The notes under the pieces are model-generated. The model searched no databases. It was not told the DNA's origin and saw only the letters and a program-made list of their open reading frames with translations. Below, in pieces: positions 7,858-58,842 of a stretch of DNA of 64,000 nucleotides. How positions within the stretch are numbered: the first letter of the stretch is position 1; the number at the start of each line of letters is the position of its first letter. Location of the stretch: positions 1 to 64,000 of IMG/VR virus record IMGVR_UViG_3300009182_000030; one strand, written 5' to 3'. The DNA comes from a virus. Both the position numbers and the translations under genes were made by a program.

Positions 7858-10800
7858 TCAAAATGTTGAGGTTGTTACACCATCCGCTGTGTAATCCTCG
7901 AGGAAATATGGCGAAGTATCTATAACATACGCACCACTATTAAAATTTCTCACAGAGCCAGAATCATTTGACTTTGGATTCTCTGTTATACCTTTATTTA
8001 GTCGTTTTGTTGCAGTATCTACAGGATTCAACAATTCAGTTGTATATGGATCATAATATTGAGCAATATCATATCCTGGATTAAATTCATTAAAATCGCT
8101 CCAAATTCTGGTGCTATACGATCCAGGTTTACGATTCCACTGTCTTGATGTTGAATCAGAATATGATGCATTGTCGAATTTTATAGTCTTCATATAACCA
8201 TATGTCAACAATGTTTCATCGTATGATAAAATCTCATATGTATCCAACCAGAAAGTTGATGTAGAGTTACCAACTTGGGCAATACTTAAACTCTTTCCGA
8301 TTGTTTGTGATGCCAATAATGTATGAGGGAATCCTTTAGTTGGTAAGAATTGGATTGTTTCTCCAAGTAAAATTGCTTCAGATTTCTTAGGCTGAATTTT
8401 CTTAGTTATAGTCTCAACTGGGAAAATAATCTCATAACTACTTGCTGGTAAAATCTGAACCAAATCTTGTTCAATAGTTATCTCATTAAAGTCTGACCAA
8501 ATTGATTGTGGTTTACCAGCTGCTTTGCCATACTGTTTAGATGCCAATTCAGCAAGAGCCAGTGATTCAGATTTTGTGCCTTTACTTAATAATTTCTGAA
8601 CCAACTCAACACTCTTAACAATTTCAGGTGATGTTCTCTTAAATGACGCAACTCTTGTTAACACATCAACTGCTTGGATAATTTCAGTTTTATATGGTGT
8701 GGTAAACAAGTCTGAGAATTCAGAATAGATAAAATCGTCTAGATATTTGTTAAAGATTGGCAGAGCAAATGCGCTGTTATCTGAACCGATAGATCCGAAT
8801 ACTTGTACTGTTTCATCAAAGTTTGTAAGTTCAAGACCTGTGTCAAGCCATCTATTTACTGGATCAAAACCAGCCTGTTTGCTGAAGTTGAATCCCTTAG
8901 CATCGTTTACTGTTGACTTGTCAATTTTGTAGCTTGGATATTGACTTTGTAAACTTTCATCTATTAAAGAAAAGAACGCAATGTATTCTGGATTGTAAAT
9001 TAAATGGTCATTAACAGTTGTATTACCAACAGTTGGTTTTGTAATTAGTTTCGGGAATGTCTCAGGAGTAGTAATTATATCTGTTCTTGGTTTTCCGAAC
9101 GATTTGGTACTTGTTTCTGTCCAAGAAATAATTTCTGTAACATAGTCTTGTGGATATACCTGGACCAAGTCTTGAATAAAATATACTTCTTCATCAAATG
9201 TATTCCAAATATTCTGAACAATACCAGCTTTCTTGTTAAACTGATTTGTTCGTACATCAACCGATCTGTTAATATCAGTTGTAGAATCCGTACCACGATA
9301 ATAGTATTGAGCAAGTTCGGTTGCTAATTCCAATTCAACAAAATCTTGCCATGTACTGTATACTGATTTAACATTACCAGCTGCTTTAGTAATAAAGAAT
9401 GGGTGAATAAGATCAGCTGACTTAGCAATATCAGAATTTGTTCTCAACAACGTAAAGAATACGCTACCATTTTTAGACAATAACAATGAATCAGCAACAT
9501 GGATTGTTTCAGCAAATGTTCTTGTTGAGTTAAACACTCTTGAAAAGATATCACTAGATAACGCAGAGTCAGAGCCATACTGAGATGGAGTAAACAAATC
9601 TTCGCTAACTGTAAAACTTTCAAAATAATCTAAAAACTTAACATCTGGAAATACTTGGTTTCCTATATCACTAATACCACCGAATGTAACAACTGTATCA
9701 TCAAACGATGTTAACTCCATTCCTGTGTCAACATACTTACGTATTGGACCTGTGCCAAGAATTACTTTAGATATGAATGCACCTTTACTATCACTGACTG
9801 TTGACTTGTCAATTTTGTAATTTGGATACTGTCCCTGTAAACTTTCATCAATTAATGACAAGTAAGGAATATACTCAGGATTATATGTTAGGTGATCATT
9901 AAGAGTTGTATTACCAACACCACTCTTAGTAATTGTTTTAGGGAATGTCTCAGCAGCATTGAGTGTTTCAGCAAATGGTTTCGCTAAACTTATTTCAGTT
10001 TTATGTGTAAGTGTAGCGTAGTCTGTAGTTGTTGTGAATCCAAAACCTGTTTGAACCAAATCTTGATCAACTGTTGCTGCGAATGTTAAATCGTTATAAT
10101 CTGTCCAAACATAATTGAGGTTTACAACTTTCTTACTAAAAGTTTTAGGTAATGTTTCACCAAGTTGAATTAACTCATAACGACCTTCATATGATAATTC
10201 AATGTCTGACAGAACAGCAAGAGATGTTTCATCATAAGATCTCCAACTTCTATTAGCGTATGCGCCAGCAGAAACATTATACTTTTTTGCGAATGTTTGT
10301 GTTACACCAGCAGTATCTTCTTTTGGTTTTGATAGACTCTTAGGAATTATATCAGCAAGACTTACTGCATCGCGATTACGTTTTGTAAATCCAACAGTTG
10401 CTATTGAAGTAGTACCAATAACAGAAATCGTTTCTGGTGTTGATTTTGTCAAGTTTAATGACAAGTCTTGGTCTAAACCATTACCACTTCCGAATGATAG
10501 ATCAGCGAAGTCAGTCCACCAGCCTTGCGCATAATAGTATTGTGTCGCATTCTTAGAAACTGTTTTACCAACAGCATCACTATATTTTGCTGTATCGCCT
10601 GATGCTGTTGGGTTTAATGTAAATAATAAATCTTGACCAACAACATTTCGTTTGGTTTCATAACTCTTTGGTCCAACATCAACAGTTACTGATGATGGAT
10701 ATGTATATGTTCTAGCATCATACTGTACCAAATCTTGGTCAGCTGTTGTGCCAAAAGTTAATTGGGCATGGTCAGTAAAATATGCACTTTGTGTATTTGT

Positions 10801-13380
10801 TCTAGATGGTGTACCAGTAATATTCGTTATGAATAAAATTTTACCATCGCCAAATGTCGCTGCAACTTGGAATGAACAGTCAGTACCAATTCCTGTAGCT
10901 ACTGAAAAATACTGGTAAGTAGATGAATACTTTGTACCAGTGTTTAGTATTGTAACATTATAAGTTGGTGTGCCAGAAGGAACAGATGGCTGAACAACTT
11001 CAATTAATGCTGTTGCGTTTACACCACCAGTATCGCTGTAGAATTCATTCGTATAGAATATATCATTGAAGTCATTAAATACGTTTGGTTTAAAATCACC
11101 AACAGTTCTTGAAATAGTTTTAGGGAATGTGTCAGCAGCAGGAACAGTATCCGCTGGTAATCTTCTGTAAGTTACAGTTTTCGCAAAGGTATCAGCTGCT
11201 AATGCTCTTTCTGAATCAGCAGTATATGATGATGCGTATGATAGGTATTGGTCTTGATCAAATACAGCTGTAGTTGCGAAATTTGGATCAGTTGATATTA
11301 CTGAAGAACTTTCGGCGAATGTTAAGTCAGCATAATCTGTCCAAATAGAATTGTTATAGTATGTTAAAGTTTTGTTTGCAACTTTAGTTACATATTTTGC
11401 TGGTGAGTCAACTGGCTGTATAAAATCAACCCACTGAGAACCATAGTACTGGCATAATTCAACAGATACATATATGTCGTTGAAATCGTACCAGCGACTT
11501 TGGGCACTACCAGCAGTTTTAGATACTGTTTTAGGGAATGTCTCTGCTATCGCAGTAGTGTCATTGAACTGACGAATAAAGGAAACAAGTTTTCTAAACT
11601 GATCGTATACTTTAGATATGTTGGTTGGGTTGTGTCCAGGCGTAACTTCTGGATGGGTAAATCCAAAAGAAAATCGATCATTACCTTGTAAAGTATCAGC
11701 AAGTTTCTTAGCAAAATACTTGGCAGTAATTTGATCAACTGCTCTTGATATGTCAGCTGGTCTTCTTCTTGCTGTTAATACCTTACTGAATACATCTGTT
11801 GCTCTTGATGTGTCAGCTTTAGTTCTGTTATAAGAAACAACTCTTAAGAATACTTCTTGTGCTTTTGCTACATCAGCAGGTAATCTTCTGAATGTTACAA
11901 CCTTACTGAATACATCAGTTGCTTTTTGTATTTCTGCTGGCGATCTTCTAGCAACCCATGCTCTTGTTAATGTATCAGTTGCTCTTGGTACATCAAAGAA
12001 TGATCTTCTGTAATACTTAACAGTTGCAATAACATCAACAGAGTGTGTTGATGTAGCTGTTGAGTTTAAAGATTTATTAAATGAAACAAGTCGTGAGAAT
12101 GAATCAGATGTGCGAGCAGTATCTGTTTTATTTGGACGGATGGCTTTAGCTGCTGCATCAACTGCTCTGTTCGTTTCAGCAAATGTGCCTTTACCAATAT
12201 ATTTTGCTTTTGTATCAGTAAACGATGTTGTGTCATTCTTCGTTCTGTTAAACGAAACAACTTTACTAAAATTCTCAGCTAATGAGATTGCTTCGTTCTT
12301 AGGTCTATTGAATGTTACAACCTTGCGGAATGTATCAATAGTAGATTCGCTATCGCTGAATACTTTATGATATGATGCAACTCTTAAAACAGAATCAGCA
12401 GCAAGAGGTGTTTCTGTTCTTGGCTTACTTACTGTTTTCTTTCTACTCTCAACCAATGATGTAGTATCAGGAACAGATCTTACGAAGGAAACAATCTTAG
12501 AGAATGTATCGCCGATATGAGAAATGTCTAATCTAGAAGATGTGTTGTTCCAGTTTAGATTAGCATTATGTACGGCAGAAACAAAATCAATAATTCTCTT
12601 TGTCAACAACAATGTTCTGTTGTCGTTGGCTTTGAAGATTTCACTGGCAACTTTGCCGAAGTTTACTTTCTTTAAATCAGAGAAACTGACAGTTTGAGTT
12701 GATGGAGATTTAGATACCTGTTTAAAACGCGAATCAGCAGCACTAGCAGTTTCAGTTTTTGGTTTTGTTACACTTAATGCTTTTACATCTGCTGAAGAAA
12801 GTAATTCTGCTGGTAGTCTCTTAAAGGAAACAACTTTAGAAAAATTCTCAGCAAATTTGACAGTATCGTTTTTAGTTTTCTGAACACTCTTAACAGCAAC
12901 ATCAGTACCACGTGATGTGTCTGATTTAACTTTACCAATTAACTTGGTTCTAGTATCAGATAGGGAAAGGGTATCGTTCTTTGTTTTGTGGTAACTAACA
13001 ACACGAACAACTGTTTCGTTAAGTGTAACGATTTGTTGATAGACTTTACCAAGACGTTTAGTGGAGATTGCGTCACTAGCATGGGCAGTTTGAATAGCTG
13101 CCTTTGTAGTTTTAAGAGTTGCCTTATCGACTGCGTGTCCAGATTCGATAAGACTTAGGATATGACTTAGTGCGTCGTAAACAACACTTAGTTTTGCTGC
13201 GCCAACAACTGCTTGAGCCATTGCTGCTCGAACAGCTTCTGCTGGCATAGCAACAACTTTTTTAACTTGATTGCGAATATCCTGTGCGGATATTGCTTTG
13301 TTTTCAGAAAGTGATGATGCCTTAACCTTTACAGGTTGATTCAATTTATCATTGTTATTTGAACCTTTGGCAGATGGCAT
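7858..13380 (-). CDS. 1840-aa repeat protein, putative long fibre or whisker
   Basis: Built almost entirely of degenerate repeats of roughly 25-30 residues with the core 'D(T/S)xxxxDxFxKxVSFxR'. Examples are ENFSKVVSFNRTKNDT, DTFAKTVTYRRLPADT and DVFSKVVTFRRLPADV. From about residue 680 the repeats are interrupted by aromatic/acidic inserts of the type 'WTDFNDLTF..DQDLVQ' that recur about ten times. A lysine-rich N-terminal region (1-80) precedes the repeats. No enzymatic motif, signal peptide or membrane segment is seen. The gene lies within the late fibre block, with a TATAAATA box 67 nt upstream; no clear ribosome site is visible. A virion fibre is inferred from context and repetitive architecture. 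I do not recognise the family. Confidence 0.6.
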   Translation of the reverse strand: MPSAKGSNNNDKLNQPVKVKASSLSENKAISAQDIRNQVKKVVAMPAEAVRAAMAQAVVGAAKLSVVYDALSHILSLIESGHAVDKATLKTTKAAIQTAHASDAISTKRLGKVYQQIVTLNETVVRVVSYHKTKNDTLSLSDTRTKLIGKVKSDTSRGTDVAVKSVQKTKNDTVKFAENFSKVVSFKRLPAELLSSADVKALSVTKPKTETASAADSRFKQVSKSPSTQTVSFSDLKKVNFGKVASEIFKANDNRTLLLTKRIIDFVSAVHNANLNWNNTSSRLDISHIGDTFSKIVSFVRSVPDTTSLVESRKKTVSKPRTETPLAADSVLRVASYHKVFSDSESTIDTFRKVVTFNRPKNEAISLAENFSKVVSFNRTKNDTTSFTDTKAKYIGKGTFAETNRAVDAAAKAIRPNKTDTARTSDSFSRLVSFNKSLNSTATSTHSVDVIATVKYYRRSFFDVPRATDTLTRAWVARRSPAEIQKATDVFSKVVTFRRLPADVAKAQEVFLRVVSYNRTKADTSRATDVFSKVLTARRRPADISRAVDQITAKYFAKKLADTLQGNDRFSFGFTHPEVTPGHNPTNISKVYDQFRKLVSFIRQFNDTTAIAETFPKTVSKTAGSAQSRWYDFNDIYVSVELCQYYGSQWVDFIQPVDSPAKYVTKVANKTLTYYNNSIWTDYADLTFAESSSVISTDPNFATTAVFDQDQYLSYASSYTADSERALAADTFAKTVTYRRLPADTVPAADTFPKTISRTVGDFKPNVFNDFNDIFYTNEFYSDTGGVNATALIEVVQPSVPSGTPTYNVTILNTGTKYSSTYQYFSVATGIGTDCSFQVAATFGDGKILFITNITGTPSRTNTQSAYFTDHAQLTFGTTADQDLVQYDARTYTYPSSVTVDVGPKSYETKRNVVGQDLLFTLNPTASGDTAKYSDAVGKTVSKNATQYYYAQGWWTDFADLSFGSGNGLDQDLSLNLTKSTPETISVIGTTSIATVGFTKRNRDAVSLADIIPKSLSKPKEDTAGVTQTFAKKYNVSAGAYANRSWRSYDETSLAVLSDIELSYEGRYELIQLGETLPKTFSKKVVNLNYVWTDYNDLTFAATVDQDLVQTGFGFTTTTDYATLTHKTEISLAKPFAETLNAAETFPKTITKSGVGNTTLNDHLTYNPEYIPYLSLIDESLQGQYPNYKIDKSTVSDSKGAFISKVILGTGPIRKYVDTGMELTSFDDTVVTFGGISDIGNQVFPDVKFLDYFESFTVSEDLFTPSQYGSDSALSSDIFSRVFNSTRTFAETIHVADSLLLSKNGSVFFTLLRTNSDIAKSADLIHPFFITKAAGNVKSVYSTWQDFVELELATELAQYYYRGTDSTTDINRSVDVRTNQFNKKAGIVQNIWNTFDEEVYFIQDLVQVYPQDYVTEIISWTETSTKSFGKPRTDIITTPETFPKLITKPTVGNTTVNDHLIYNPEYIAFFSLIDESLQSQYPSYKIDKSTVNDAKGFNFSKQAGFDPVNRWLDTGLELTNFDETVQVFGSIGSDNSAFALPIFNKYLDDFIYSEFSDLFTTPYKTEIIQAVDVLTRVASFKRTSPEIVKSVELVQKLLSKGTKSESLALAELASKQYGKAAGKPQSIWSDFNEITIEQDLVQILPASSYEIIFPVETITKKIQPKKSEAILLGETIQFLPTKGFPHTLLASQTIGKSLSIAQVGNSTSTFWLDTYEILSYDETLLTYGYMKTIKFDNASYSDSTSRQWNRKPGSYSTRIWSDFNEFNPGYDIAQYYDPYTTELLNPVDTATKRLNKGITENPKSNDSGSVRNFNSGAYVIDTSPYFLEDYTADGVTTSTF

Positions 13381-13386
13381 TTTGAT

Positions 13387-13437
13387 TTGACATTAATTCT
13401 GTAACCTTGTATAATTACAGTGTTGGGTTTCTAGTTA
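13387..13437 (+). promoter_or_regulatory. Consensus early promoter plus conserved leader, antisense to late genes
   Basis: Plus-strand TTGACA (13387-13392), a 17-bp spacer and TATAAT (13410-13415), followed by the 18-nt leader GTGTTGGGTTTCTAGTTA (13420-13437). The same TTTGACATTAATT start and the identical 18-nt leader occur on the minus strand at 61097-61148. Here the promoter faces rightward, against the flanking minus-strand late genes, so an RNA from it would be antisense to the 1840-aa gene's late promoter and to the 3' part of the 112-aa gene. Confidence 0.65.
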
Positions 13438-13446: not shown

Positions 13447-13454
13447 TATTTATA
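13447..13454 (-). promoter_or_regulatory. T4-type late promoter for the 1840-aa gene
   Basis: TATAAATA on the minus strand, 67 nt upstream of ATG 13380, overlapping the stop codon of the 112-aa gene. Confidence 0.7.
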
Positions 13455-13788
13455 CTTGCGTAATCTGCGGTGATACGATTATTACACCCTCAACTGGTCT
13501 GGTTCTGAAATTAGATGTATCAACCATTTCAATATCATATAGATATCTTCCTGATTTTAATGCACCTGTTTGTGCTGCGCTCAAAGATAATACCACTTGA
13601 CCAGTAGCTGGAAGTGGAATTGTGCATGTAAATGTAGTTGCAGTTGAAGAAGCAAAAGACTTTCTTAATTGGGATGTAAACGAATACCCAGTCAAATTCA
13701 ATGGCGTAATTCCATTGTCAGCATACAATGTGATTCCAGTTTGGAAGTCGGCTCCCTGATCAATATACAGTGTTTGAACTAATGCCAT
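13450..13788 (-). CDS. Small beta-sandwich virion protein (112 aa)
   Basis: The pattern 'QGADFQTGITLYADNGITPLNLTGYSFTSQLRKS...GQVVLSLSAAQTGALKSGRYLYDIEM......RPVEGVIIVSPQIT' resembles small Ig-like baseplate or fibre proteins (BppU N-terminal-like) often found beside fibre genes of T4-like phages. No catalytic residues. It follows the 74-aa coiled-coil gene directly (stop TAA, then ATG). Virion location is inferred from this resemblance and the late block. Confidence 0.55.
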   Translation of the reverse strand: MALVQTLYIDQGADFQTGITLYADNGITPLNLTGYSFTSQLRKSFASSTATTFTCTIPLPATGQVVLSLSAAQTGALKSGRYLYDIEMVDTSNFRTRPVEGVIIVSPQITQV

Positions 13789-50194: not shown

Positions 50195-50279
50195 TGGTGC
50201 GAGTAGCCAGAATCGAACTGGCACGACCGAAGTCGAGAGATTTTAAGTCTCTTGTGTCTACCTATTTCACCATACTCGC
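50195..50279 (-). tRNA. tRNA-Leu (UAA)
   Basis: Minus-strand cloverleaf with anticodon TAA, long variable arm, acceptor GCGAGTA/TACTCGC and encoded CCA. Confidence 0.9.
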
Positions 50280-50286
50280 ATTTACC

Positions 50287-50364
50287 TGGAGCACAGAGTG
50301 AGATTCGAACTCACGACTTTACGGATTTGCAATCCGTTGCATTTGACCTCTCTGCCATCTGTGC
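50287..50364 (-). tRNA. tRNA-Cys (GCA)
   Basis: Loop TTGCAAA with anticodon GCA. Acceptor GCACAGA/TCTGTGC, discriminator U, encoded CCA. The next gene's stop codon lies 1 nt beyond its 5' end. Confidence 0.9.
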
Positions 50365-50365
50365 A

Positions 50366-50899
50366 CTAATATGCCCACGCTACATACGTATACCTTATAC
50401 CCTTTGTTACTTCTGTTACACTATGTGGGTAGATAAAGGTTGATGGAAACATAATTATGTCTCCCTGCTTCATCTCTATTACTTCTTTGTTCAATAAAAA
50501 TTGTCCACCATCATAGTTATCATTTAGTGCTCCCAAAAATGTTAGCACTGGAATACCATCTGTTTTATTTCTGCGTATCAGATCAAAATGTTCTGACATC
50601 ACAGTTCCAGTTTTATACTTGTTCAATCTTATATTGCTATGATTGCTTACAAGGTTTGTTAATTTTAACTCATCGTAGTATTTTTGTAAAGCAATTTGTA
50701 GATATGGTTTTAGAATATCCAAGTTTTTATTGTAAAGAACATCCAACTCTTTAGTGTGTTGTGGTTTCTTTTCATCAGCAACATTGTTATACCAGTTATG
50801 CGTTTTCCATTCTTCATCAGTATCGTACTGTTGAATTACAGTTTCACATATATCTTTGGGCACAACATTAAAAACTCTTACAAAATGTTTTACGTCCAT
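50366..50899 (-). CDS. 2OG-Fe(II) oxygenase, prolyl hydroxylase-like (177 aa)
   Basis: The complete catalytic set is visible: H-x-D in 'SEHFDLIRRNKTDG', core 'VLTFLGALNDNYDGGQFLLN', then 'GDIIMFPSTFIYPHSVTEVTKGIRYTYVAW' with the distal His and the 2OG-binding Arg. It should hydroxylate a protein or nucleic acid substrate, unknown in phages. Start ATG 50899 has AAGGA 4-5 nt upstream, placed directly after the CCA end of tRNA-Met, so the gene is embedded in the tRNA transcript. Confidence 0.85.
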   Translation of the reverse strand: MDVKHFVRVFNVVPKDICETVIQQYDTDEEWKTHNWYNNVADEKKPQHTKELDVLYNKNLDILKPYLQIALQKYYDELKLTNLVSNHSNIRLNKYKTGTVMSEHFDLIRRNKTDGIPVLTFLGALNDNYDGGQFLLNKEVIEMKQGDIIMFPSTFIYPHSVTEVTKGIRYTYVAWAY

Positions 50900-50908
50900 A
50901 CGTTTCCT

Positions 50909-50985
50909 TGGTGGGCTGAGTGGGATTCTAACCCACGATCAATCGATTATGAGTCGACTGCTTTAGGACTCTAAGCTACCAGCCC
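50909..50985 (-). tRNA. tRNA-Met/Ile2 (CAU), copy 1
   Basis: Anticodon loop CTCATAA, acceptor GGGCTGG/TCAGCCC, encoded CCA. The T-loop is TTAGAAT, with A at the usual C56. Its 5' 15 nt also encode the end of the thioredoxin gene. Confidence 0.85.
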
Positions 50986-51219
50986 AAATTTTTTACGAAT
51001 AGCAGCTGGTGCCTGCGTTCCCATAATCCTGTCTACCTCAACACCATCTTTCATCAAGACCAATGTTGGTACACTACGAACTTTAAATTGATTTGCCATA
51101 TCTGAATTCTCATCAATATCAACTTCTTCAACCTCAACTCCGAGTGGATCTTTCTCTAACATTTTAGATAAAGACTTACATGGTTGACACCAACTAGCAC
51201 TAAACTTAATTACTTTCAT
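50971..51219 (-). CDS. Thioredoxin-like protein (82 aa)
   Basis: Short thioredoxin fold: MKVIKFSASWCQPCKSLSKM with redox motif WCQPC, then 'VEEVDIDENSDMANQFKVRSVPTLVLMKDG' with the cis-Pro (SVPT). It likely reduces disulfides, for example of phage or host ribonucleotide reductase (inference). ATG 51219 has AGGAG 7 nt upstream; the frame is open further back through tRNA-Arg but no better start exists. The last five codons (GLVA and stop TAG) lie inside tRNA-Met, using that tRNA's conserved bases as the stop. Confidence 0.85.
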   Translation of the reverse strand: MKVIKFSASWCQPCKSLSKMLEKDPLGVEVEEVDIDENSDMANQFKVRSVPTLVLMKDGVEVDRIMGTQAPAAIRKKFGLVA

Positions 51220-51236
51220 GTTTTCTCCTGTTAAAT

Positions 51237-51311
51237 TGGCCTCGCCAGCAGGAATCGAACCCACATTATAGGTGTAGAAGACCCATGTATTATCCGTTAT
51301 ACGATGGCGAG
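51237..51311 (-). tRNA. tRNA-Arg (UCU)
   Basis: Anticodon TCT, acceptor CTCGCCA/TGGCGAG, discriminator G, encoded CCA. Confidence 0.9.
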
Positions 51312-51318
51312 AAAAAAT

Positions 51319-51408
51319 TGGCGGTGAGTCAGGGAGTCGAACCCTGTCAGCTACTTTCATAACTGTACGGATTAGCAATCCGCTGCATTACCATCCTGCC
51401 CACTCACC
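51319..51408 (-). tRNA. tRNA-Ser (GCU)
   Basis: Anticodon GCT in loop TTGCTAA, long variable arm, acceptor GGTGAGT/ACTCACC, discriminator G, encoded CCA. Confidence 0.9.
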
Positions 51409-51544
51409 TTGTTACTTTACGTAGCAACTTATACCAGTAATATTTAAACCCTCTCCAAGTTGGGAGAAAATTCATGTCCCAGAAAAACCCAACTTCTTTG
51501 GGCACATTTCCGTACGCTTTTTGTAATGTTTCGTCTGACTTCAT
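51404..51544 (-). CDS. Small protein ending inside tRNA-Ser (46 aa)
   Basis: ATG 51544 overlaps the TGA of the phosphoesterase gene (ATGA). It reads MKSDETLQKAYGNVPKEVGF, then a Trp/Tyr-rich basic end (FKYYWYKLLRKVTR). The stop TGA at 51404-51406 lies in the first bases of tRNA-Ser. No family recognised. Tight coupling and lack of any other gene in this gap support that it is real. Confidence 0.55.
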   Translation of the reverse strand: MKSDETLQKAYGNVPKEVGFFWDMNFLPTWRGFKYYWYKLLRKVTR

Positions 51545-52122
51545 GTTGGTCCATTCCCATTTTTAAATCCAATCGTTCCACCTTCTTCTTTGATTCTGTC
51601 AATGACTTCTTCAAAAAGAATAGGACGAAAGTCAGTTTGTTCTACGCAAACGCAATGGTAACGTGTGTCAACAATGTCAGTAATTTTGCCACCAAATCCA
51701 GGTAACATAACTCTATTGCTATGAGTATGTCCATGAATGTTGACACCAAACCTACCAAGACTTTCAGGATGAAGCGGAATATGTGAAAGAATCATTCCAT
51801 TCATCACATGATATGCACGCAGTTCACGAAAGTGTTGACGATATTCTTCATCTCTAAAGATATCATGGTTACCACGAATCAGAACCTTATCGCCATTCAG
51901 TCTACGCATGATTCCCAGTGCTTTCCTGTTAATCACTACGTCACCAAGATGATAAACTTTGTCTGTTGGTTTGACAGTTTCGTTCCATGCTTTTACCATG
52001 GCTTCATCCATTTCCTCAGGATTATCCCAAGGACGAAGTTTTGTAACACCATCATTGCGAGTAAACTTACAAACACCCATGTGTCCGAAGTGAGTATCGC
52101 TGACTAAAAATACGCTTGGCAT
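51541..52122 (-). CDS. Calcineurin-like metallophosphoesterase (193 aa)
   Basis: All metal-site motifs are present in order: SDTHFGH (near 8), GDVV (near 60), GNHD (near 83), a single SHIPLHP (near 112) and GHTH (near 129). These bind two divalent metals and hydrolyse phosphoester bonds; the substrate could be nucleotides, RNA or protein. ATG 52122 is chosen over GTG 52128 because AGGAGG lies 7 nt before the ATG. It follows the tyrosine phosphatase gene directly, suggesting linked dephosphorylation roles (inference). Confidence 0.88.
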   Translation of the reverse strand: MPSVFLVSDTHFGHMGVCKFTRNDGVTKLRPWDNPEEMDEAMVKAWNETVKPTDKVYHLGDVVINRKALGIMRRLNGDKVLIRGNHDIFRDEEYRQHFRELRAYHVMNGMILSHIPLHPESLGRFGVNIHGHTHSNRVMLPGFGGKITDIVDTRYHCVCVEQTDFRPILFEEVIDRIKEEGGTIGFKNGNGPT

Positions 52123-52124
52123 AA

Positions 52125-52553
52125 TCACTCCTCCTTGTAAGTTAGTCCAAGAACCTGCATCAATTTTTTCTTCACACGAAGATTTGGTTGACGATAATTA
52201 TCAGTTGGTGTAAATCCCATCATGGTCGCAACTTCAACAACTGCCCCACTGCGACAAATACCAGCAAAACAATGAACGACTACATTCATACGCTGATCAA
52301 GTGCGCGATTCAACAGAGCAATAATATTTTCTGCTTGCTCATCCTGAAATTTACACTCATCAGGAAAATCATCCTCATCCTCAGCATCAAGAAATTCAAA
52401 TTCATGAACCTCTTTGAAGTTGTGTTTGGGGTTTGGCTTCCAACCAGCAGGATCGGTAATGCTAATAAGCATAGCATTCGGTCCAGCATCGTAGTGAAAT
52501 CCAGTGTTTACATCAGAAGCTGCTACGTTTTCGATAAATCTAATTGTTTCCAT
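52125..52553 (-). CDS. Protein tyrosine/dual-specificity phosphatase-like (142 aa)
   Basis: Active-site P-loop VVVHCFAGICRSGAVVEVA gives HC-x5-RS with Cys near 95 and Arg near 101, the signature of Cys-based phosphatases. The acidic middle (FLDAEDEDDFPDE) could hold the general-acid Asp loop. It could dephosphorylate host or phage proteins or RNA 5' ends. The promoter TTGACT-17-TATAAT ends only 6 nt before ATG 52553, so the mRNA may be leaderless. Ends 3 nt beyond the next gene's start (overlap). Confidence 0.8.
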   Translation of the reverse strand: METIRFIENVAASDVNTGFHYDAGPNAMLISITDPAGWKPNPKHNFKEVHEFEFLDAEDEDDFPDECKFQDEQAENIIALLNRALDQRMNVVVHCFAGICRSGAVVEVATMMGFTPTDNYRQPNLRVKKKLMQVLGLTYKEE

Positions 52554-52559
52554 ACCTAT

Positions 52560-52588
52560 ATTATACCTGATTATTGCTTAAAAGTCAA
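52560..52588 (-). promoter_or_regulatory. Sigma70 promoter giving a near-leaderless mRNA
   Basis: Minus-strand TTGACT (52583-52588), 17-bp spacer, TATAAT (52560-52565). The ATG of the phosphatase gene begins 7 nt after the -10 box, about where transcription should start. Confidence 0.75.
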
Positions 52589-52608
52589 TACCCCTGGAAA
52601 CTCTTATC

Positions 52609-52684
52609 TGGAGCGGGAGACGAGACTCGAACTCGCGACATCTTGCTTGGCAAGCAAGTGCTCTACCAACTGAGCTACTCCCGC
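52609..52684 (-). tRNA. tRNA-Gly (GCC)
   Basis: Anticodon GCC in loop TTGCCAA, acceptor GCGGGAG/CTCCCGC, discriminator U, encoded CCA. Confidence 0.92.
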
Positions 52685-52687
52685 ATT

Positions 52688-52763
52688 TGGCACCCCCTGA
52701 TGGACTCGAACCACCGCATGTCGGAATCAAAATCCGATGCCTTACCAACTTGGCGAAGAGGGT
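52688..52763 (-). tRNA. tRNA-Gln (UUG)
   Basis: Anticodon TTG in loop TTTTGAT, acceptor ACCCTCT/AGGGGGT, discriminator G, encoded CCA. Confidence 0.9.
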
Positions 52764-52792
52764 ATAATAAATTTGTGGCAGGTGAGGTATCT

Positions 52793-52814
52793 AGTCATTG
52801 TCTAGACAACGACT
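52793..52814 (-). repeat. Near-perfect 22-nt palindrome in a tRNA spacer
   Basis: Arms AGTC(G/A)TTGT and ACAA(C/T)GACT around a central CTAG. As minus-strand RNA it pairs fully with one G-U. It lies in the 86-nt spacer between tRNA-Gln and tRNA-Trp, which holds no recognisable gene. Possible processing site. Confidence 0.45.
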
Positions 52815-52849
52815 TGCCCATTCTCCTTTTACTTTCCTTACCACAAAAC

Positions 52850-52923
52850 TGGCATCCCGATAGGGACTCGAACCCCAACCAACAGTTTTGGAGACTGCTA
52901 TGCTGCCATTACACCATCGAGAT
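52850..52923 (-). tRNA. tRNA-Trp (CCA)
   Basis: Anticodon CCA in loop CTCCAAA, acceptor ATCTCGA/TCGGGAT, discriminator G, encoded 3' CCA. Confidence 0.9.
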
Positions 52924-52927
52924 ATTT

Positions 52928-53194
52928 TTACTTTTCTATAACAGCGACAACATGTTCTTCAGTAAGAATAACACGTTGAGCACCTTCAAGAACAACAATC
53001 TGTGACTTGCCCCAATCAATGAGAACAACATCACCAACATTAACAAGTGTTACTTCTGGACCAACAGCCAACACAGTCGCAGTTTTAGATTCGCGAGTTG
53101 AGTCAGCACCTTCAAGGATAATTCCTGATGCAGTTTTTGTTTCTGCTTTATTCTCTGCAACAAGAACACGTTTTCCTAATGGTTTTGCAATCAT
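52928..53194 (-). CDS. GroES-like co-chaperonin, copy 1 (88 aa)
   Basis: Cpn10 pattern: IAKPLGKRVLVAENKAETKT, ASGIILEGADSTRESKTATV, LAVGPEVTLVNVGDVVLIDW. It should form a heptameric lid on host GroEL, replacing GroES for folding large phage proteins, the role of T4 gp31. GAGG lies 9 nt before the ATG. A second, divergent copy lies at 53517-53792, separated by three tRNA genes. Length (88 aa) is shorter than T4 gp31 (111) and near bacterial GroES. Confidence 0.85.
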   Translation of the reverse strand: MIAKPLGKRVLVAENKAETKTASGIILEGADSTRESKTATVLAVGPEVTLVNVGDVVLIDWGKSQIVVLEGAQRVILTEEHVVAVIEK

Positions 53195-53220
53195 AATAAT
53201 CCTCTGTTATTTTAAATTAG

Positions 53221-53256
53221 TGACATACTACTTATCCTTTTATACTCCGTATGTCA
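53221..53256 (-). repeat. 8-bp inverted repeat between tRNA-Ser and the GroES-like gene
   Basis: TGACATAC (53221-53228) and GTATGTCA (53249-53256) flank 20 nt. The hairpin would lie between the 3' end of tRNA-Ser(UGA) and the mRNA of the co-chaperonin. Possible processing or stability element. Confidence 0.4.
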
Positions 53257-53266
53257 GGGAGAGGTT

Positions 53267-53355
53267 TGGCGGAAGAACTGAGATTCGAACTCAGGGACCT
53301 TGTTACAGTCGGCAGTTTTCAAGACTGCTGGTTTAAACCACTCACCCACTCTTCC
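53267..53355 (-). tRNA. tRNA-Ser (UGA)
   Basis: Anticodon TGA in loop CTTGAAA, long variable arm, acceptor GGAAGAG/TTCTTCC, discriminator G, encoded CCA. Confidence 0.9.
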
Positions 53356-53363
53356 TTAAACTT

Positions 53364-53438
53364 TGGCACCCAATGAGAGAATCAAACTCCCAACCCAGCG
53401 TTCGTAGCACTGTGTGATATTCATTTCACCAATCGGGT
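53364..53438 (-). tRNA. tRNA-Arg (ACG)
   Basis: Anticodon ACG in loop CTACGAA, acceptor ACCCGAT/ATTGGGT, discriminator G, encoded CCA. A34 needs host TadA to become inosine. Confidence 0.88.
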
Positions 53439-53440
53439 AT

Positions 53441-53515
53441 TGGTACCTCGTGACAGATTCGAACTGCCGACCTTCTCCGTGTAAAAGAGACACTCTACCA
53501 CTGAGTTAACGAGGC
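53441..53515 (-). tRNA. tRNA-Val (UAC)
   Basis: Anticodon TAC in loop TTTACAC, acceptor GCCTCGT/ACGAGGT, discriminator A, encoded CCA. Confidence 0.9.
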
Positions 53516-53516
53516 A

Positions 53517-53792
53517 TTATTCTTCAATGAGCATTAAGATTTCTTTCTCAGAAACCATAACTCTTTTCTTTCCTTCTACATCAATCTCGTGTGCTTTATG
53601 CCAATTCACAATACACACATCACCTATTTTTACAGTCTTAGTATCTGGACCAATGCCAAGTACAGTACAGTGCCAAGTGTTTCCACCAACACCATTTTCT
53701 TGACCAAGATCTAACTCAATACCACTTGCTGTTTTTGTATCTTTCTTGTTCTTAGCAAGATAGACCATATCTTTAATTGGTTTAATTTCCAT
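53517..53792 (-). CDS. GroES-like co-chaperonin, copy 2 (91 aa)
   Basis: Divergent Cpn10: MEIKPIKDMVYLAKNKKDTK, TASGIELDLGQENGVGGN (mobile-loop region), CTVLGIGPDTKTVKIGDVCI. It aligns end to end with copy 1 but has a different mobile-loop segment, which binds GroEL. AAGGAT lies 6-7 nt upstream of ATG. Two diverged copies may form a hetero-oligomeric lid or serve two GroEL paralogues (inference). It ends 1 nt from tRNA-Val. Confidence 0.82.
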   Translation of the reverse strand: MEIKPIKDMVYLAKNKKDTKTASGIELDLGQENGVGGNTWHCTVLGIGPDTKTVKIGDVCIVNWHKAHEIDVEGKKRVMVSEKEILMLIEE

Positions 53793-53794
53793 AA

Positions 53795-54496
53795 TTATCC
53801 TTTAATATAACCTGCTTTAATGTGTTCTTCAAGTGTAAGATATCCGTATTCTTCTGGCTTTGGATAAACATACTGATCATAATGGTCAGAGTTTGTTCTT
53901 CCAACTGGCATACAGTTTGCTCCAATAATCATTCTATATGTGCTTGGCGATGGTAGAGCTACATGATTTGCCCAAGACGGAAATATAATTGCCGTTCCTG
54001 GAACAAATGGAATCTGTTCTTGAATCGAGAAAAACTTTCTCGCACCTTTTTTAATTCTAGGCACAATCTGAAACAGATTAGCATTATGATTCTTAAAAGC
54101 AGTACCATTCGCATTACCATCTATATCAAACAAATACAAAACACCTGCTAGAAAGGTATTGGCATGAACATGTTCATGGTGATTGCCACCTTGCTTATGT
54201 CTGGTTGCCCACATTGATGTAATACCAATATCTTTTTCATAACCACATTTATCCATCACATCCTCAAAACATGATGTAAAAAATTCTGTAACTTCAGACA
54301 GTTGAGGATGTAATGTTTTATCATTTAAATTACCATCAGTAATTTGTAAACCATTACGTTCTCTTTCAACAAAAAAGTTTTTGTCTTGAGCCAAGTACGT
54401 TGTCAATTCCTTTTGTTTCTTCTGAAAATCAGGAAACTGATAACGCCAAACTGGTGTCGGAAAGAAATCGTGACGATCTAAAAAATTATTGTTCAT
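53795..54496 (-). CDS. 2OG-Fe(II) oxygenase, TIGR02466-like (233 aa)
   Basis: Pattern of the '2OG-FeII_Oxy_5' group: DFFPTPVWRYQFPDF at the start, NGLQITDGNLND, W-ATRHKQGGNHHEHVHANTF followed by LAGVLYLFDID, then 'PGTAIIFPSWANHVALPS' with the distal His and 'YRMIIGANCMPVG' with the Arg. Substrate unknown; common in marine phages. Start ATG 54496 overlaps the end of the DUF2061 gene by 11 nt, so coupled. Ends 2 nt before the GroES-like gene's start. Confidence 0.82.
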   Translation of the reverse strand: MNNNFLDRHDFFPTPVWRYQFPDFQKKQKELTTYLAQDKNFFVERERNGLQITDGNLNDKTLHPQLSEVTEFFTSCFEDVMDKCGYEKDIGITSMWATRHKQGGNHHEHVHANTFLAGVLYLFDIDGNANGTAFKNHNANLFQIVPRIKKGARKFFSIQEQIPFVPGTAIIFPSWANHVALPSPSTYRMIIGANCMPVGRTNSDHYDQYVYPKPEEYGYLTLEEHIKAGYIKG

Positions 54497-54722
54497 CTAC
54501 TTTCTTACCCCAATCAGACACATTCCAAGCACGTTCATGGAAGAAGTACATAATGCTATTTACGACAAGCGCAAAACTAACAACACCAAGTCCTACCATC
54601 CAGCTACCACTTGCTAACCAACCACCAATAAAATTGGTAATCGTCACAAGGATACGCCATGTAATAACTTTAGCAAGAGATCGTGGAATACGTTCTTGAA
54701 ATTTCGTTTTAAAATTAAACAT
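54486..54722 (-). CDS. DUF2061 membrane protein (78 aa)
   Basis: Matches the DUF2061 pattern: 'RIPRSLAKVITWRILVTITN', hydrophobic helices FIGGWLASGS and VGLGVVSFALVVNSIMYF, then HERAWNV. Two membrane segments are expected in the inner membrane. Function unknown. GGAG lies 7-8 nt before ATG. Its promoter (54772-54800) starts transcription just inside a hairpin that also looks like the terminator of the upstream gene. Confidence 0.8.
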   Translation of the reverse strand: MFNFKTKFQERIPRSLAKVITWRILVTITNFIGGWLASGSWMVGLGVVSFALVVNSIMYFFHERAWNVSDWGKKVDEQ

Positions 54723-54737
54723 AATAATTCTCCAAAA

Positions 54738-54772
54738 TGAAAAAAGAGCTGGGGTTTATTCCAACTCTTTTA
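54738..54772 (-). terminator. Terminator of the TRAP-like gene, also a 5' hairpin
   Basis: On the minus strand AAAGAGTTGG and CCAGCTCTTT pair (one G-U) around AATAAACC, followed by a T run. It terminates transcripts from 55751 and overlaps the start of the next promoter's RNA. Confidence 0.7.
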
Positions 54773-54800
54773 TTATACTTTACTTTTGATTATTTGTAAA
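54772..54800 (-). promoter_or_regulatory. Sigma70 promoter for DUF2061 and downstream genes
   Basis: Minus-strand TTTACA (54795-54800), 17-bp spacer, TATAAT (54772-54777). Confidence 0.75.
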
Positions 54801-54806
54801 GTTTTT

Positions 54807-55751
54807 TTATGCTTCCTGTATTCGTTGGACTAATCCAGGACTAAAGTATGTAGAGAATCGAGTATATACTTTGGATGTTAATTCTTTAAATTTCGATTTC
54901 TCTGTTTCATTCATTCTTACTACTTCAACATTATTATCTGCGCATTGTTGTAAGATGTTTGGTATATCTGCTACCGAAGTTTGTCTTTCTTGTCTAGCAG
55001 CATTAAATGCAGCTGTTGACATAATTTCTTGAGTAGCTTCATCAAACTGACTGAAGAATTGTTTATTGACAATAATTGATGTCAAAAACAAACTATGTTC
55101 AGTGTCATTAACAACTTCGAATGTTTTATGCTGCTCTAGTGGGAACACACGAACGTATGTTGATTCACCAGCTTCAATAAGACCTTGCTCAACAGCAGAA
55201 TGCATTTCTTCTAAAGAGATACGATCTTTTGGCACAGCACCAAGCATTTTAAATGTCTCAACAGCAACTGGGCTGCGAGCCACACGAACTTTTTTACCAC
55301 GCCAAGAATCAACTGTATCAGCACGGAAATTAGCAGGAACAATTCTGAACCCACCTGAATATGTAAAACTCATTGCCTTCGTGTTGGAATTTTTCTCCAC
55401 ACTTGAAAGCAACTCTGCACCGATTTCGCCTTCTAATACACGATCAGCATGATCATGATCTTTGAATAAGAAAGGTAAATCTAATGCATGTAAATCTTTG
55501 TTGTAGTCAGCCAACCATGTTGTGTAGATATGGCTCATTTCAATTTCGCCAGAATCAATCAACCCCATTAAGTCGTCTTTCATAATGTGTTTGCCATCAT
55601 TGTATTTTTCTGAATAATCAGACAATGATAGAACTTCGCACTGGAAATTACCACCAGTCTTTTCATTTACTTCGGCTACAAATGCCTCAGCTACTTTTAC
55701 AAAGTAGTCAATTGGTTCATGGGCAATCACCCAACGAATTGGTTTTGTCAT
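54807..55751 (-). CDS. TRAP-type solute-binding protein without signal peptide (314 aa)
   Basis: Resembles DctP-family TRAP receptors: 'IDYFVKVAEAFVAEVNEKTGGNFQCEV' (N-terminal lobe), 'LDLPFLFKDHDHADRVL', 'WRGKKVRVARSPVAVETFKMLGAVP' with the substrate-pairing Arg region, EEMHSAVEQGLIEAGE and 'LTSIIVNKQFF'. Length is that of a mature receptor. It starts MTKPIRWVIAHEP with no signal peptide, so it should stay in the cytoplasm or in virions. No TRAP permease is nearby. AGGAG lies 6 nt before ATG, and a perfect TATAAATA late box lies 34 nt upstream. Ligand unknown. Confidence 0.8.
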   Translation of the reverse strand: MTKPIRWVIAHEPIDYFVKVAEAFVAEVNEKTGGNFQCEVLSLSDYSEKYNDGKHIMKDDLMGLIDSGEIEMSHIYTTWLADYNKDLHALDLPFLFKDHDHADRVLEGEIGAELLSSVEKNSNTKAMSFTYSGGFRIVPANFRADTVDSWRGKKVRVARSPVAVETFKMLGAVPKDRISLEEMHSAVEQGLIEAGESTYVRVFPLEQHKTFEVVNDTEHSLFLTSIIVNKQFFSQFDEATQEIMSTAAFNAARQERQTSVADIPNILQQCADNNVEVVRMNETEKSKFKELTSKVYTRFSTYFSPGLVQRIQEA

Positions 55752-55784
55752 TTTATCTCCTGATATAAGGTACTATTACAACCT

Positions 55785-55792
55785 TATTTATA
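55785..55792 (-). promoter_or_regulatory. T4-type late promoter before the TRAP-like gene
   Basis: TATAAATA on the minus strand, 34 nt upstream of ATG 55751, in a 44-nt intergenic gap. Confidence 0.65.
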
Positions 55793-55795
55793 TGA

Positions 55796-57058
55796 CTAAT
55801 TTGGCCAATCTATATCATAACGCTGTAAATGGTATTTAAAATATCGTCTTACAGATAGGTTTTTTCTGTTCAAGATTTGGTAGTTGGAATCAAGTCCAAG
55901 TAAATGACGTCCTCTAACATCTTTTCGAACTTCCCTTGGTTTGCGTTTTGAGTTCAAATTTCCCAAAGATTCCAGCTTGGTTTTGAAATGGAAGTACCAG
56001 TCGTTCTTGTCTAGATCGTAGATATATTGTCGCTGAGCATATTTGTATGTTGCAAGAGTACTACCAATTTTCTGACCATTGTTATTGTTAGCCATACTCC
56101 ATTGTTGATATTCGCCACCATTATACCAGTTTTCCATTGAGTCAATACATTCGCGAATCGGTATGGTATAATTAAAGTAGATCGCACCACGAACTGAACA
56201 ATTTAAATACTTGACATTAAAAATTAACCACCAAAAGAAATCGTGTAAACTATGAATAGGAACAGATCCAGTATTGGCATTATGAACATACTTATGGTAC
56301 AACAGCCTACCAAACTCACGACCCTCTGGTGTATTGTTATATGATAGATGTTTGATAATTAAATCTTTATACAAACTATAATGAGCATCAGCAGAAGATA
56401 TCTTATTTTTGATTGACAATAAGTTTTGTCTTACCTCAGGACTTAAATCCTGAATGTAGTAATCGTAGTTGTGGTATAATTGTAAACCAATTGATGTACC
56501 AAAAATACAATCACCTTCGTCTGCAGTAATTGGTCTATAACCATCACGAATTAAATCATCATAGAAACATGTATATGAATCAATTACTTTTAATTTATTG
56601 TGTATAAATTTTTCCCAGAATACTGGATTTTCAGCAATACTATGTATGCTGGCGCAGACAACAACTGATTTTAATTCTTCTTCATTTAAGTTTTTAATCA
56701 ACGAAGCAAGAACCAGTGTACTATCCATACCACCAGAATACATCACAACAAGTTTCTCACCATTATGAATTCTTTGACGCATTTGAAGCGCACGTTCATC
56801 AGTAACTTGTTCATACGATTTTGAGAAGTTTGGATCATATGGTGGCATTTCAAATCCAGGAATCAAAGGTTGTTTCCATGGCAACGACCACTCGCCATTG
56901 CGTGTGACAAATCTATTTTGCGTTAGACGTTTTGCAATATCAATGTAGAACTTTCCACCTGCGCCACATTCTTCTCTGGTCTCTGCCCAGAAACCTTGTT
57001 GTGGGGTTTGGTCTAGTCGAATGTTATAAAAATAAATTGGGTCGTCTAATGCTATCAT
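55796..57058 (-). CDS. PP-loop ATP pyrophosphatase, asparagine synthetase-like (420 aa)
   Basis: Residues 95-125 (LVVMYSGGMDSTLVLASL) contain the SGGxDS PP-loop of N-type ATP pyrophosphatases such as asparagine synthetase and related enzymes, which adenylate a carboxylate or carbonyl before amide or thiol transfer. No glutaminase domain is visible at the N-terminus (which begins MIALDDPIYFYNIRLD), so ammonia or another donor would be needed. The C-terminus is basic and Tyr/Arg-rich. Substrate unknown. The start overlaps the end of the 238-aa gene (ATGA), so the two are coupled. Confidence 0.75.
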   Translation of the reverse strand: MIALDDPIYFYNIRLDQTPQQGFWAETREECGAGGKFYIDIAKRLTQNRFVTRNGEWSLPWKQPLIPGFEMPPYDPNFSKSYEQVTDERALQMRQRIHNGEKLVVMYSGGMDSTLVLASLIKNLNEEELKSVVVCASIHSIAENPVFWEKFIHNKLKVIDSYTCFYDDLIRDGYRPITADEGDCIFGTSIGLQLYHNYDYYIQDLSPEVRQNLLSIKNKISSADAHYSLYKDLIIKHLSYNNTPEGREFGRLLYHKYVHNANTGSVPIHSLHDFFWWLIFNVKYLNCSVRGAIYFNYTIPIRECIDSMENWYNGGEYQQWSMANNNNGQKIGSTLATYKYAQRQYIYDLDKNDWYFHFKTKLESLGNLNSKRKPREVRKDVRGRHLLGLDSNYQILNRKNLSVRRYFKYHLQRYDIDWPN

Positions 57059-57771
57059 AAAATTTTCAGATTTGGAACTTCATCAAGGAATTTATAATAC
57101 TCATTGGCAAGAGTAACAACTTTGTTGTAGTCTTTCTCCCAAACACCTTTGATATTATCACGTGCTTCTTCAACACTGTTTGACATATAAAGTTGTTTCT
57201 TTACTTCTTTAATTACACCATCTTCAAATTTGGTTGCGTCTCTATATAATGTTACACCATTCAACCAGTCATTTGGTAAATATTGTTCAGCAAAAGTTTT
57301 GTTATCAACATAATTGACAATCGTATTAGATAAACTCAAAGCATATACACATCTATTAACATACTCAGCGTATTCTTTCAGCTGAATTAACTTATCGTAT
57401 CTACTACCTGTGTCAAATTCTTTTGGTAATCCAACTTCAACAAGTTGTGTTGCGTCGTTTAACACTTTTACTGTAGGAATTTGACTGGTAATTAAATCAG
57501 CAGCAGCACCACGTTTCTCTGCTGTCTTATTGAACACCATGTAATTTAAACAGTTATCATTGGTCATACCACTAGTAATTTTGGGCAGAACATAAACTGT
57601 GGTCGCGATCTTTGAAGACAAAAGTTGAGCGGTCTGCAGTGTAATCCAGTAATCATAATCATCAAGCATAAGCCAACGATCAAAAATCTGACAGTAGATA
57701 CCATTCGTTCTTCTATTTCCTTCCTCGTCGTAGTACATGTTATCTACGATTTTAATAGTGTTACGTTGCAT
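57055..57771 (-). CDS. Unrecognised protein coupled to the PP-loop gene (238 aa)
   Basis: No motif recognised. It begins MQRNTIKIVDNMYYDEEGNR, has a region 'WLMLDDYDYWITLQTAQLLSSKIATTVYVLPK' that could be an alpha/beta core, and ends helical. AAGGAT lies 7 nt upstream of ATG, immediately after the CCA of tRNA-Ala. It overlaps the PP-loop gene by ATGA and could be its partner or substrate-supplying protein (inference). Confidence 0.65.
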   Translation of the reverse strand: MQRNTIKIVDNMYYDEEGNRRTNGIYCQIFDRWLMLDDYDYWITLQTAQLLSSKIATTVYVLPKITSGMTNDNCLNYMVFNKTAEKRGAAADLITSQIPTVKVLNDATQLVEVGLPKEFDTGSRYDKLIQLKEYAEYVNRCVYALSLSNTIVNYVDNKTFAEQYLPNDWLNGVTLYRDATKFEDGVIKEVKKQLYMSNSVEEARDNIKGVWEKDYNKVVTLANEYYKFLDEVPNLKIL

Positions 57772-57784
57772 AATTTATCCTTAA

Positions 57785-57858
57785 TGGTGGAGGATGAGAG
57801 AATCGAACTCTCAATAATGACTTGCAAAGCCATGGTTATCCCATTTAACTAATCCCCC
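57785..57858 (-). tRNA. tRNA-Ala (UGC)
   Basis: Anticodon TGC in loop TTTGCAA, acceptor GGGGGAT/ATCCTCC, discriminator A, encoded CCA. Confidence 0.9.
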
Positions 57859-57861
57859 AAT

Positions 57862-57939
57862 TGGTCTCAGTAGAAGGATTCGAACCTTCGACCCCCTGCT
57901 CCCAAAGCAGGTGCGCTAACCAGACTGCGCTACACTGAG
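57862..57939 (-). tRNA. tRNA-Pro (UGG)
   Basis: Anticodon TGG in loop TTTGGGA, acceptor CTCAGTG with 3' ACTGAG, encoded CCA. Confidence 0.9.
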
Positions 57940-57946
57940 TTAATTT

Positions 57947-58021
57947 TGGTGGTGATGGTTGGATTCGAGCCAACGACCCCCTGCGTATGAAGCAGATGCA
58001 CTACCACTGTGCTACATCACC
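57947..58021 (-). tRNA. tRNA-Met/Ile2 (CAU), copy 2
   Basis: Anticodon CAT in loop TTCATAC, perfect acceptor GGTGATG/CATCACC, T-loop CTCGAAT, encoded CCA. Could be elongator Met or lysidine-modified Ile; not resolvable by eye. Confidence 0.88.
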
Positions 58022-58028
58022 GAAATTC

Positions 58029-58111
58029 TGGTGCCCCAAGAGAGACTCGAACTCTCACGCTTGCGCACTGGCTTCTAAGACCAGCGTGTCTACCAATTCC
58101 ACCATCGGGGC
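58029..58111 (-). tRNA. tRNA-Leu (UAG)
   Basis: Anticodon TAG in loop CTTAGAA, long variable arm, acceptor GCCCCGA/TTGGGGC, encoded CCA. Confidence 0.9.
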
Positions 58112-58130
58112 ATACTTCTACTTCAATAAA

Positions 58131-58204
58131 TGGTGCCCCCACACAGAATCGAACTGCGGATTGATGCTTACAAGGCAACTGTTATACCATTTAACTATGA
58201 GGGC
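58131..58204 (-). tRNA. tRNA-Thr (UGU)
   Basis: Anticodon TGT in loop CTTGTAA, acceptor GCCCTCA with 3' TGGGGGC, encoded CCA. Confidence 0.9.
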
Positions 58205-58210
58205 AATAAC

Positions 58211-58285
58211 TGGCTCCAGTGGCTGGGATCGAACCAACGACCAATTGATTAACAGTCAACTGCACTACCGCTGTGCTACACTGGA
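58211..58285 (-). tRNA. tRNA-Asn (GUU)
   Basis: Anticodon GTT in loop CTGTTAA, acceptor TCCAGTG/CACTGGA, discriminator G, encoded CCA. Confidence 0.9.
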
Positions 58286-58512
58286 ATAATGAATTTGTAA
58301 GTTGTGCCACCATCGTTATTGGCACCATTCACCTGTTTATACAAGGGCGACCAGGACTCGGTACGTCACTTGGGATTCATCCAGTTGATACGCCACCTGT
58401 ATACCTCCACCGTAAACGGCGATAAGTCGGAATCGAACCGCAACCTTTTACTAACTTGGTCCTTCGAAGAAACTTCATTAGCATGACTTCACTTGCTGAC
58501 ACTTACAAAACT
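58286..58512 (-). other. 227-nt structured spacer in the tRNA array
   Basis: No complete tRNA or convincing gene. On the minus strand it contains a nested pairing (TATACA and GGCG with CGCC and TGTATA, about 58330-58402) and a T-arm-like GCGGTTCGATTCCG near 58428-58441 lacking a proper stem. Terminal 9-nt complementarity (TTTGTAAGT near 58294 with ACTTACAAA near 58500) could bring the ends together. One frame is open except for a single TGA. Possible stable RNA, remnant gene or decayed tRNA. Confidence 0.35.
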
Positions 58513-58589
58513 TGGTAGCGGAGGTTGGATTCGAACCAACGATTCTTGGCTTATGAGACCAAGCGGATAGACCACTTCCATACACCGCA
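58513..58589 (-). tRNA. tRNA-Met (CAU), copy 3, with unpaired acceptor end
   Basis: Anticodon CAT in loop CTCATAA, standard T-loop TTCGAAT, encoded CCA. Acceptor TGCGGTG/CTCCGCT has mismatches at 1:72 and 6:67. A 1:72 mismatch is a trait of initiator tRNA, but the anticodon stem lacks the GGG/CCC pairs. Confidence 0.85.
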
Positions 58590-58631
58590 ACAATTATATT
58601 ATGTATATATCTGTTACATACATAAAACAAC

Positions 58632-58707
58632 TGGTGGGACTGCTGGGACTCGAACCCAGAATTGGCAGATTAAAAGTCTGCTGTGATAACCATTTCACTA
58701 CAATCCC
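58632..58707 (-). tRNA. tRNA-Lys (UUU)
   Basis: Anticodon TTT in loop CTTTTAA, acceptor GGGATTG/CAGTCCC, discriminator A, encoded CCA. Confidence 0.92.
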
Positions 58708-58739
58708 ATTCGCTTTCGAACTTTCGTCTTTCGTTTCAT
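58698..58739 (-). CDS. 13-aa basic micro-ORF ending in tRNA-Lys
   Basis: AAGGAG lies 6 nt before ATG 58739. It reads MKRKTKVRKRMGL and stops at the TAG formed by positions 8-10 of tRNA-Lys. Seven of 13 residues are basic. The upstream bases (AAGGAGAAAGTAATG) resemble the start region of the RNase H-like gene at 50180, so it could be a truncated gene start left by tRNA insertion rather than a functional peptide. Confidence 0.35.
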   Translation of the reverse strand: MKRKTKVRKRMGL

Positions 58740-58759
58740 TACTTTCTCCTTAAAAAAAT

Positions 58760-58834: not shown

Positions 58835-58842
58835 ATTATTAT

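Follow-up and report, generated by a model that had tools for sequence, protein, structure and literature searches.

The stretch of DNA analysed here (the window) comprises bases 1-64000 of a 105,871-bp (105.9-kb) virus contig. The contig is that of a T4-like myovirus, with baseplate and tail PHROGs, an L-shaped-fibre assembly protein, primase gp61, ribonucleotide reductase, and 26 tRNAs, whose genes are clustered in the early region at window positions 50195-59833. The main genes across 1975-39277 are all encoded on the minus strand. Among them are the genes for a 1840-aa repetitive structural protein of the long tail fibre region (7858-13380) and a 112-aa protein of the L-shaped tail fibre assembly family (phrog_3304; 13450-13788). 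The gap between the two contains, on the plus strand and just to the right of the start of the 1840-aa gene, the sequence TTGACATTAATTCTGTAACCTTGTATAAT (13387-13415), which matches TTGACA-17-TATAAT at 12 of 12 positions, as described in the original prediction. The promoter opposes all of its neighbours, as had also been claimed; no same-strand gene is near, and the nearest downstream gene on the plus strand lies 25.9 kb away.

The promoter consists of a -35 hexamer (TTGACA, 13387-13392), a 17-nt spacer (13393-13409), a -10 hexamer (TATAAT, 13410-13415), and a discriminator with a start-site leader, GTGTTGGGTTTCTA(GTTA), at 13416-13437, all on the plus strand. The discriminator, TACA here and usually AACA, precedes the 18-nt leader GTGTTGGGTTTCTAGTTA (13420-13437), and the predicted +1 is near 13421-13422. 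A small peptide, GTG TTG GGT TTC TAG, was rejected, as its frame is not maintained among relatives. Five 12/12 promoter sites occur in the whole window, and this is the sole one within 5-24 kb. An early-promoter model, trained on 92 promoters from five other contigs and run over the whole 106 kb, gave the promoter a score of 27.8 against a cut of 14. The scan detected 15 early-type sites in the contig. Fourteen of them occupy the minus strand at 46-96 kb; for nearly all of these, a gene on the same strand lies no more than a few hundred bases away, and one site precedes the tRNA cluster. The fifteenth, at 13422 (+), is the sole early-type promoter within the late-gene block of the contig. The start of the spacer (TTAATTC...) also opens ordinary early promoters, and the conserved -35/spacer core, TTGACATTAATTC, is the same in both. 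The designation as an early promoter is therefore well supported, since the site is recovered by the model built on other contigs and shares its body with the promoters of early genes. The ordinary early promoters of these phages share the TTGACA-17-TATAAT body, often as TTGACATTAATTC; however, they run straight into the start codon, without the AACA-GTGTTGGGTTT start-site block of the cassette. These results identify 13387-13437 as an early promoter of the sigma-70 type that has a special, conserved leader at its start site and is predicted from the sequence to be active.

It had further been proposed that the RNA would be complementary to the late promoter of the 1840-aa gene. A plausible TATAAATA, likely the T4-type late promoter of this gene, is present at 13454-13447 on the minus strand and would be covered by the predicted antisense RNA, and the first gene beneath that RNA is the 112-aa gene, at its 3' end. 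This T4 late -10 motif was found six times on the minus strand and not at all on the plus strand. The element at 13454-13447 is present only in the closest relatives of the window and is missing from the remaining phages with the antisense promoter. No extra synonymous constraint was found in the 112-aa gene beneath the antisense RNA, and the third positions of its conserved codons gave a mean identity of 0.56.

The exact recurrence of the leader was confirmed, with GTGTTGGGTTTCTAGTTA found again at 61097-61114 (-) behind a second TTGACATTAATT...TATAAT, and TTTGACATTAATT sits before both leader copies. The second cassette copy (TTGACATTAATT...TATAATAGCG plus GTGTTGGGTTTCTAGTTA; 61097-61147, -) lies in a strand-switch intergenic region. 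Shuffled sequence gave a mean of 0.01 leader matches, even with 3 mismatches allowed, and the search for further copies of the 18-mer found no third GTGTTGGGTTTCTAGTTA in the whole 105,871-bp contig. Among cultured relatives, no real match to the leader was found in seven Kyanoviridae records or T4; a BLAST match in S-B68 is within a coding region. A leader that mimics the host was also considered and rejected: a scan of bacterial genomes gave 40 matches, mostly in gut Firmicutes, and none in a plausible freshwater host.

Relatives were collected via homologues of the neighbouring 112-aa gene. The antisense promoter was detected in the same ~60-nt gap between this gene and the long fibre gene in nine contigs (that of the window, L003-L009, and L011), reaching down to 70% protein identity, and was absent from the more distant relatives L010 and L012-L017. 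The -35 hexamer is identical across all relatives at this gap. Pairwise comparison of the six distinct sequences gave identities of 1.00 (-35), 0.94 (-10), 0.87 (discriminator), and 0.91 (first 14 bases of the leader), whereas identity was lower in the spacer (0.60), of which only the length of 17 is constant, and in the next 13 nt past the leader (0.51). A conserved 5' hairpin was rejected, as the folds vary among relatives.

A weight matrix was then scanned over six whole contigs for cassette members. Full members scored 39-65 and one degenerate copy 26, while other promoters scored at most 24 and shuffled sequences at most 15. The family was found at up to five orthologous places (loci A-E) per genome, which supports the original description of an antisense and recurrent cassette. 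Locus A is the tail-fibre gap, where the cassette is antisense in all six contigs; its RNA would be complementary to the 112-aa/1840-aa transcript in all relatives, and the other loci face other targets. Locus B, to which the degenerate copy belongs, is an early intergenic region, where the cassette is in sense orientation before a gene with the motif ITQEECAEVTQAISKVFRFG (61.1 kb in the window, and four other contigs). Locus C (G005, G007, and contig L071) is upstream of primase gp61, where the cassette runs antisense to a holin-like gene, locus D is in the early region in sense orientation (G002, G005, G006, and G007), and locus E is in antisense orientation between gp23 (major head protein) and gp19 (tail tube), ~0.6 kb from uvsY (G005, G006, and contig L401). 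The cassette is thus antisense at three of the five loci (A, C, and E), flanked by late or replication genes, and B and D are in early regions. The contig of the window carries no copy at gp61; locus C has been lost there. The copies have leaders of the types GTGTTGGG, GTGTAGGG, and ATGTAGAG. The leaders of loci B and D covary within a genome, being ATGTAGAG in G006 and GTGTAGRGG in G007, which suggests gene conversion or a shared recognition factor.

Two relatives listed as linear, G005 (L503-L511; ~174 kb) and G007 (L512-L520; ~165 kb), are in fact complete, circularly permuted genomes, because their ends are repeated: the first and last 50 bp recur, and a 2756-aa protein of G005 is encoded across the contig ends. 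On the closed circles, the spacing of the copies is more even than that of random points: G007 has four copies with gaps of 36-47 kb (P=0.002) and G005 has five copies with gaps of 23-48 kb (P=0.012), P values that are post hoc and come from two genomes sharing orthologous loci.

The start-site block GTGTTGGGTTTGA, with the 17-nt spacer and 4 nt after the -10, was also detected in other T4-like contigs. The first pattern scan (120 rows) gave many chance matches in unrelated contigs, and only the T4-like rows were used. In another T4-like lineage, antisense copies lie between gp55 (late sigma factor) and uvsW (helicase), at terminase gp16/gp17, and at gp4. Members in sense orientation lie directly before (small) genes in L122, L398, L399, L403, and L406, so the leader is a feature of the promoter class and not specific to origins. 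A Fisher test for antisense enrichment was unreliable because crude ORF calls make false antisense cases.

The arrangement of the loci was compared with the replication origins of T4. In T4, oriG is inside tail-fibre gene 34 with its primer RNA opposite to the gene, and the primer RNA of oriE complements gene 5; oriF maps to uvsY and oriA near dam/61, within ~2 kb of gene 61 (NC_000866). At least 5 origins are active early, and most early synthesis starts in late-gene regions; T4 uses R-loop priming, the minimal oriF and oriG are ~100 bp and comprise a promoter and an unwinding element, and oriE appears to use an early promoter (Kreuzer and Brister, PMC3016281). No local sequence motif is common to all T4 origins, and it is an open question in T4 if R-loops form at other origins and what governs the choice of origin (PMC3016281).

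The cassette at 13.4 kb resembles oriG/ori(34) and oriE in that its promoter, in a late structural region, would direct RNA against a late gene, as theirs do (34 and 5, respectively). Several copies occur per genome at roughly even distances, as do the origins of T4, of which oriG is also at the tail fibre. Locus E, 0.6 kb from uvsY, shares its gene neighbourhood with oriF/ori(uvsY), and locus C, beside gp61, with oriA; however, the primers of oriF and oriA are sense transcripts of uvsY and 56, whereas the cassettes at C and E have antisense orientation and flank the gene on its other side. The promoters also differ, as oriF and oriG have MotA-dependent middle promoters, whereas a single cassette, combining the consensus -35 with a conserved leader, is common to all the sites here. 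The strand opposite gene 34 of T4 carries TTTGCTTCA...TGTATAAT, which is presumably a MotA-box, middle-type promoter, and the cassette is absent from the T4 genome. At 13.4 kb, no MotA-box middle promoter was found, the -35 being the consensus TTGACA. The cassette is likened to oriF and oriG in anatomy and is not classed with them, as it lacks the MotA-type promoter and no unwinding element was found.

From this anatomy, we infer that the cassette promoters mark T4-type early replication origins. In such a mechanism, host RNA polymerase would produce the antisense RNA from ~13421 soon after infection, and this RNA would remain annealed near its start as an R-loop and be trimmed, so that its 3' end primes leading-strand synthesis. 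The site at 13.4 kb would be the counterpart of T4 oriG/ori(34), and the leader may allow the site to be read in trans by a shared factor or aid R-loop formation. An origin promoter of this kind, making an R-loop primer, is favoured over antisense silencing and is given close to an even chance, because the T4 oriG and oriE primers are likewise antisense in late genes and the neighbourhoods of loci A, C, and E match those of oriG, oriA, and oriF. The stronger proposal, that a shared promoter-plus-leader cassette marks all early origins of these phages, some of its copies being antisense within late genes, and that a factor acting in trans recognises the leader, is made more tentatively. Counted for the origin reading were the retention of place and sequence in nine contigs while the spacer and flanks diverge, the sharp score separation of the family, the even spacing on two closed circles, the position of the promoter as the sole early-type site in the late block with no plus-strand gene for 25.9 kb, and the antisense copies of the other T4-like lineage. 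As with T4 origins, the copies are several per genome (4-5 per closed genome), spread over the circle, and, for three of the five loci, situated antisense among late or replication genes. Counted against it were the sense copies in front of genes, the missing locus C in the contig of the window, and the missing cassette in T4. No consistent AT-rich unstable stretch was found downstream of the copies; the +8 to +68 region of the window copy is within the least stable 19% of the contig, while the copies overall are near the genome average. No GC-skew switch was found at loci A, C, and E, and the only one, at B, coincides with the gene-strand switch.

One reading offered in the original prediction was that the promoter keeps late genes off. 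In such antisense silencing, the early transcript or polymerase collision would block premature tail-fibre expression or readthrough until late transcription begins. The site does oppose the late operon, and in the window and its closest relatives it overlaps the likely late promoter (13454-13447); at three of the five loci, the cassette is antisense to genes that are late or structural. However, the late promoter is not kept along with the antisense promoter that overlaps it, and the putative targets vary by lineage (fibre, holin-like/gp61, gp23/gp19, uvsW/gp55, terminase, and gp4). Most late operons carry no copy, loci B and D in the early regions face nothing obvious to silence, and the covered gene shows no extra synonymous constraint. 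Lambda OOP and P22 sar are phage antisense RNAs that act on mRNA, and the cassette resembles them in having a promoter opposing a gene and a predicted noncoding RNA; it differs in its many dispersed copies, in the lack of a conserved target gene, and in that a short terminated RNA is not seen. Silencing is not the best reading, because the junctions bearing the cassette are few and differ among lineages and the layout resembles T4 origins, and we regard it as rather unlikely.

A trans-acting small RNA or a regulatory/operator cassette, giving a short 5' RNA with a GTGTTGGGTTT end that could, for example, sequester a factor, would be consistent with a leader kept as sequence rather than as a common hairpin, with the B/D covariation in G006 and G007, which hints at recognition in trans, with the palindrome CACTTGACAAGTG in the spacer in another lineage, and with the ~80-105 nt that separate locus B in the window from the next promoter. 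It is nevertheless quite improbable, as no common terminator or body was found past the leader, the sense copies run into genes, and the search of Rfam gave only tRNAs and one sub-threshold match. A short antisense RNA ended by a hairpin at gp23 in G006 was dropped, as the hairpin has no T-run on that strand. Spread of a duplicated early-promoter cassette through recombination, in which the copy at 13.4 kb has no role tied to its location and makes tolerated antisense noise, would account for copies that are near identical and shift places, for the >60 bp that are nearly alike at two late junctions in one lineage, and for the loss of locus C from the contig of the window. Free drift would have eroded such a promoter, however; its persistence between the same two genes in nine contigs, to as low as 70% protein identity, and the conservation of its parts but not of its spacer make this explanation very doubtful.

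If the origin reading is correct, the presence of one cassette at 4-5 evenly spaced sites would make the T4 origin questions directly testable; origins would be predictable in uncultured phages, with the whole set readable from sequence, and the scattered, motif-less origins of T4 would have relatives marked by sequence. Should the cassette instead have a regulatory role, an early promoter in antisense orientation, conserved along with its start-site leader and repeated across phage lineages, would still apparently be an undescribed promoter class, and no published description of such a class was found in literature searches.

An HNH endonuclease-like ORF (28526 / L384) is directly behind the gp23/gp19 antisense promoter in G005 and not in G006. 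In L104 and L151, the antisense copies at terminase and gp4 share nearly one 60-bp cassette, the spacer of which contains the palindrome CACTTGACAAGTG, which looks like an operator. A sharp GC-skew switch occurs at window position 61000, where locus B and the gene-strand switch lie, and likewise in relatives. Downstream of the locus B copy is an ordinary early promoter (60979-61007, -) directly before a 93-aa gene (60691-60972). The region 60979-61147 of the window thus has two tandem early promoters ~140 nt apart with a hairpin-capable stretch between them, a layout that is also present in G004-G007 and could encode a small RNA.
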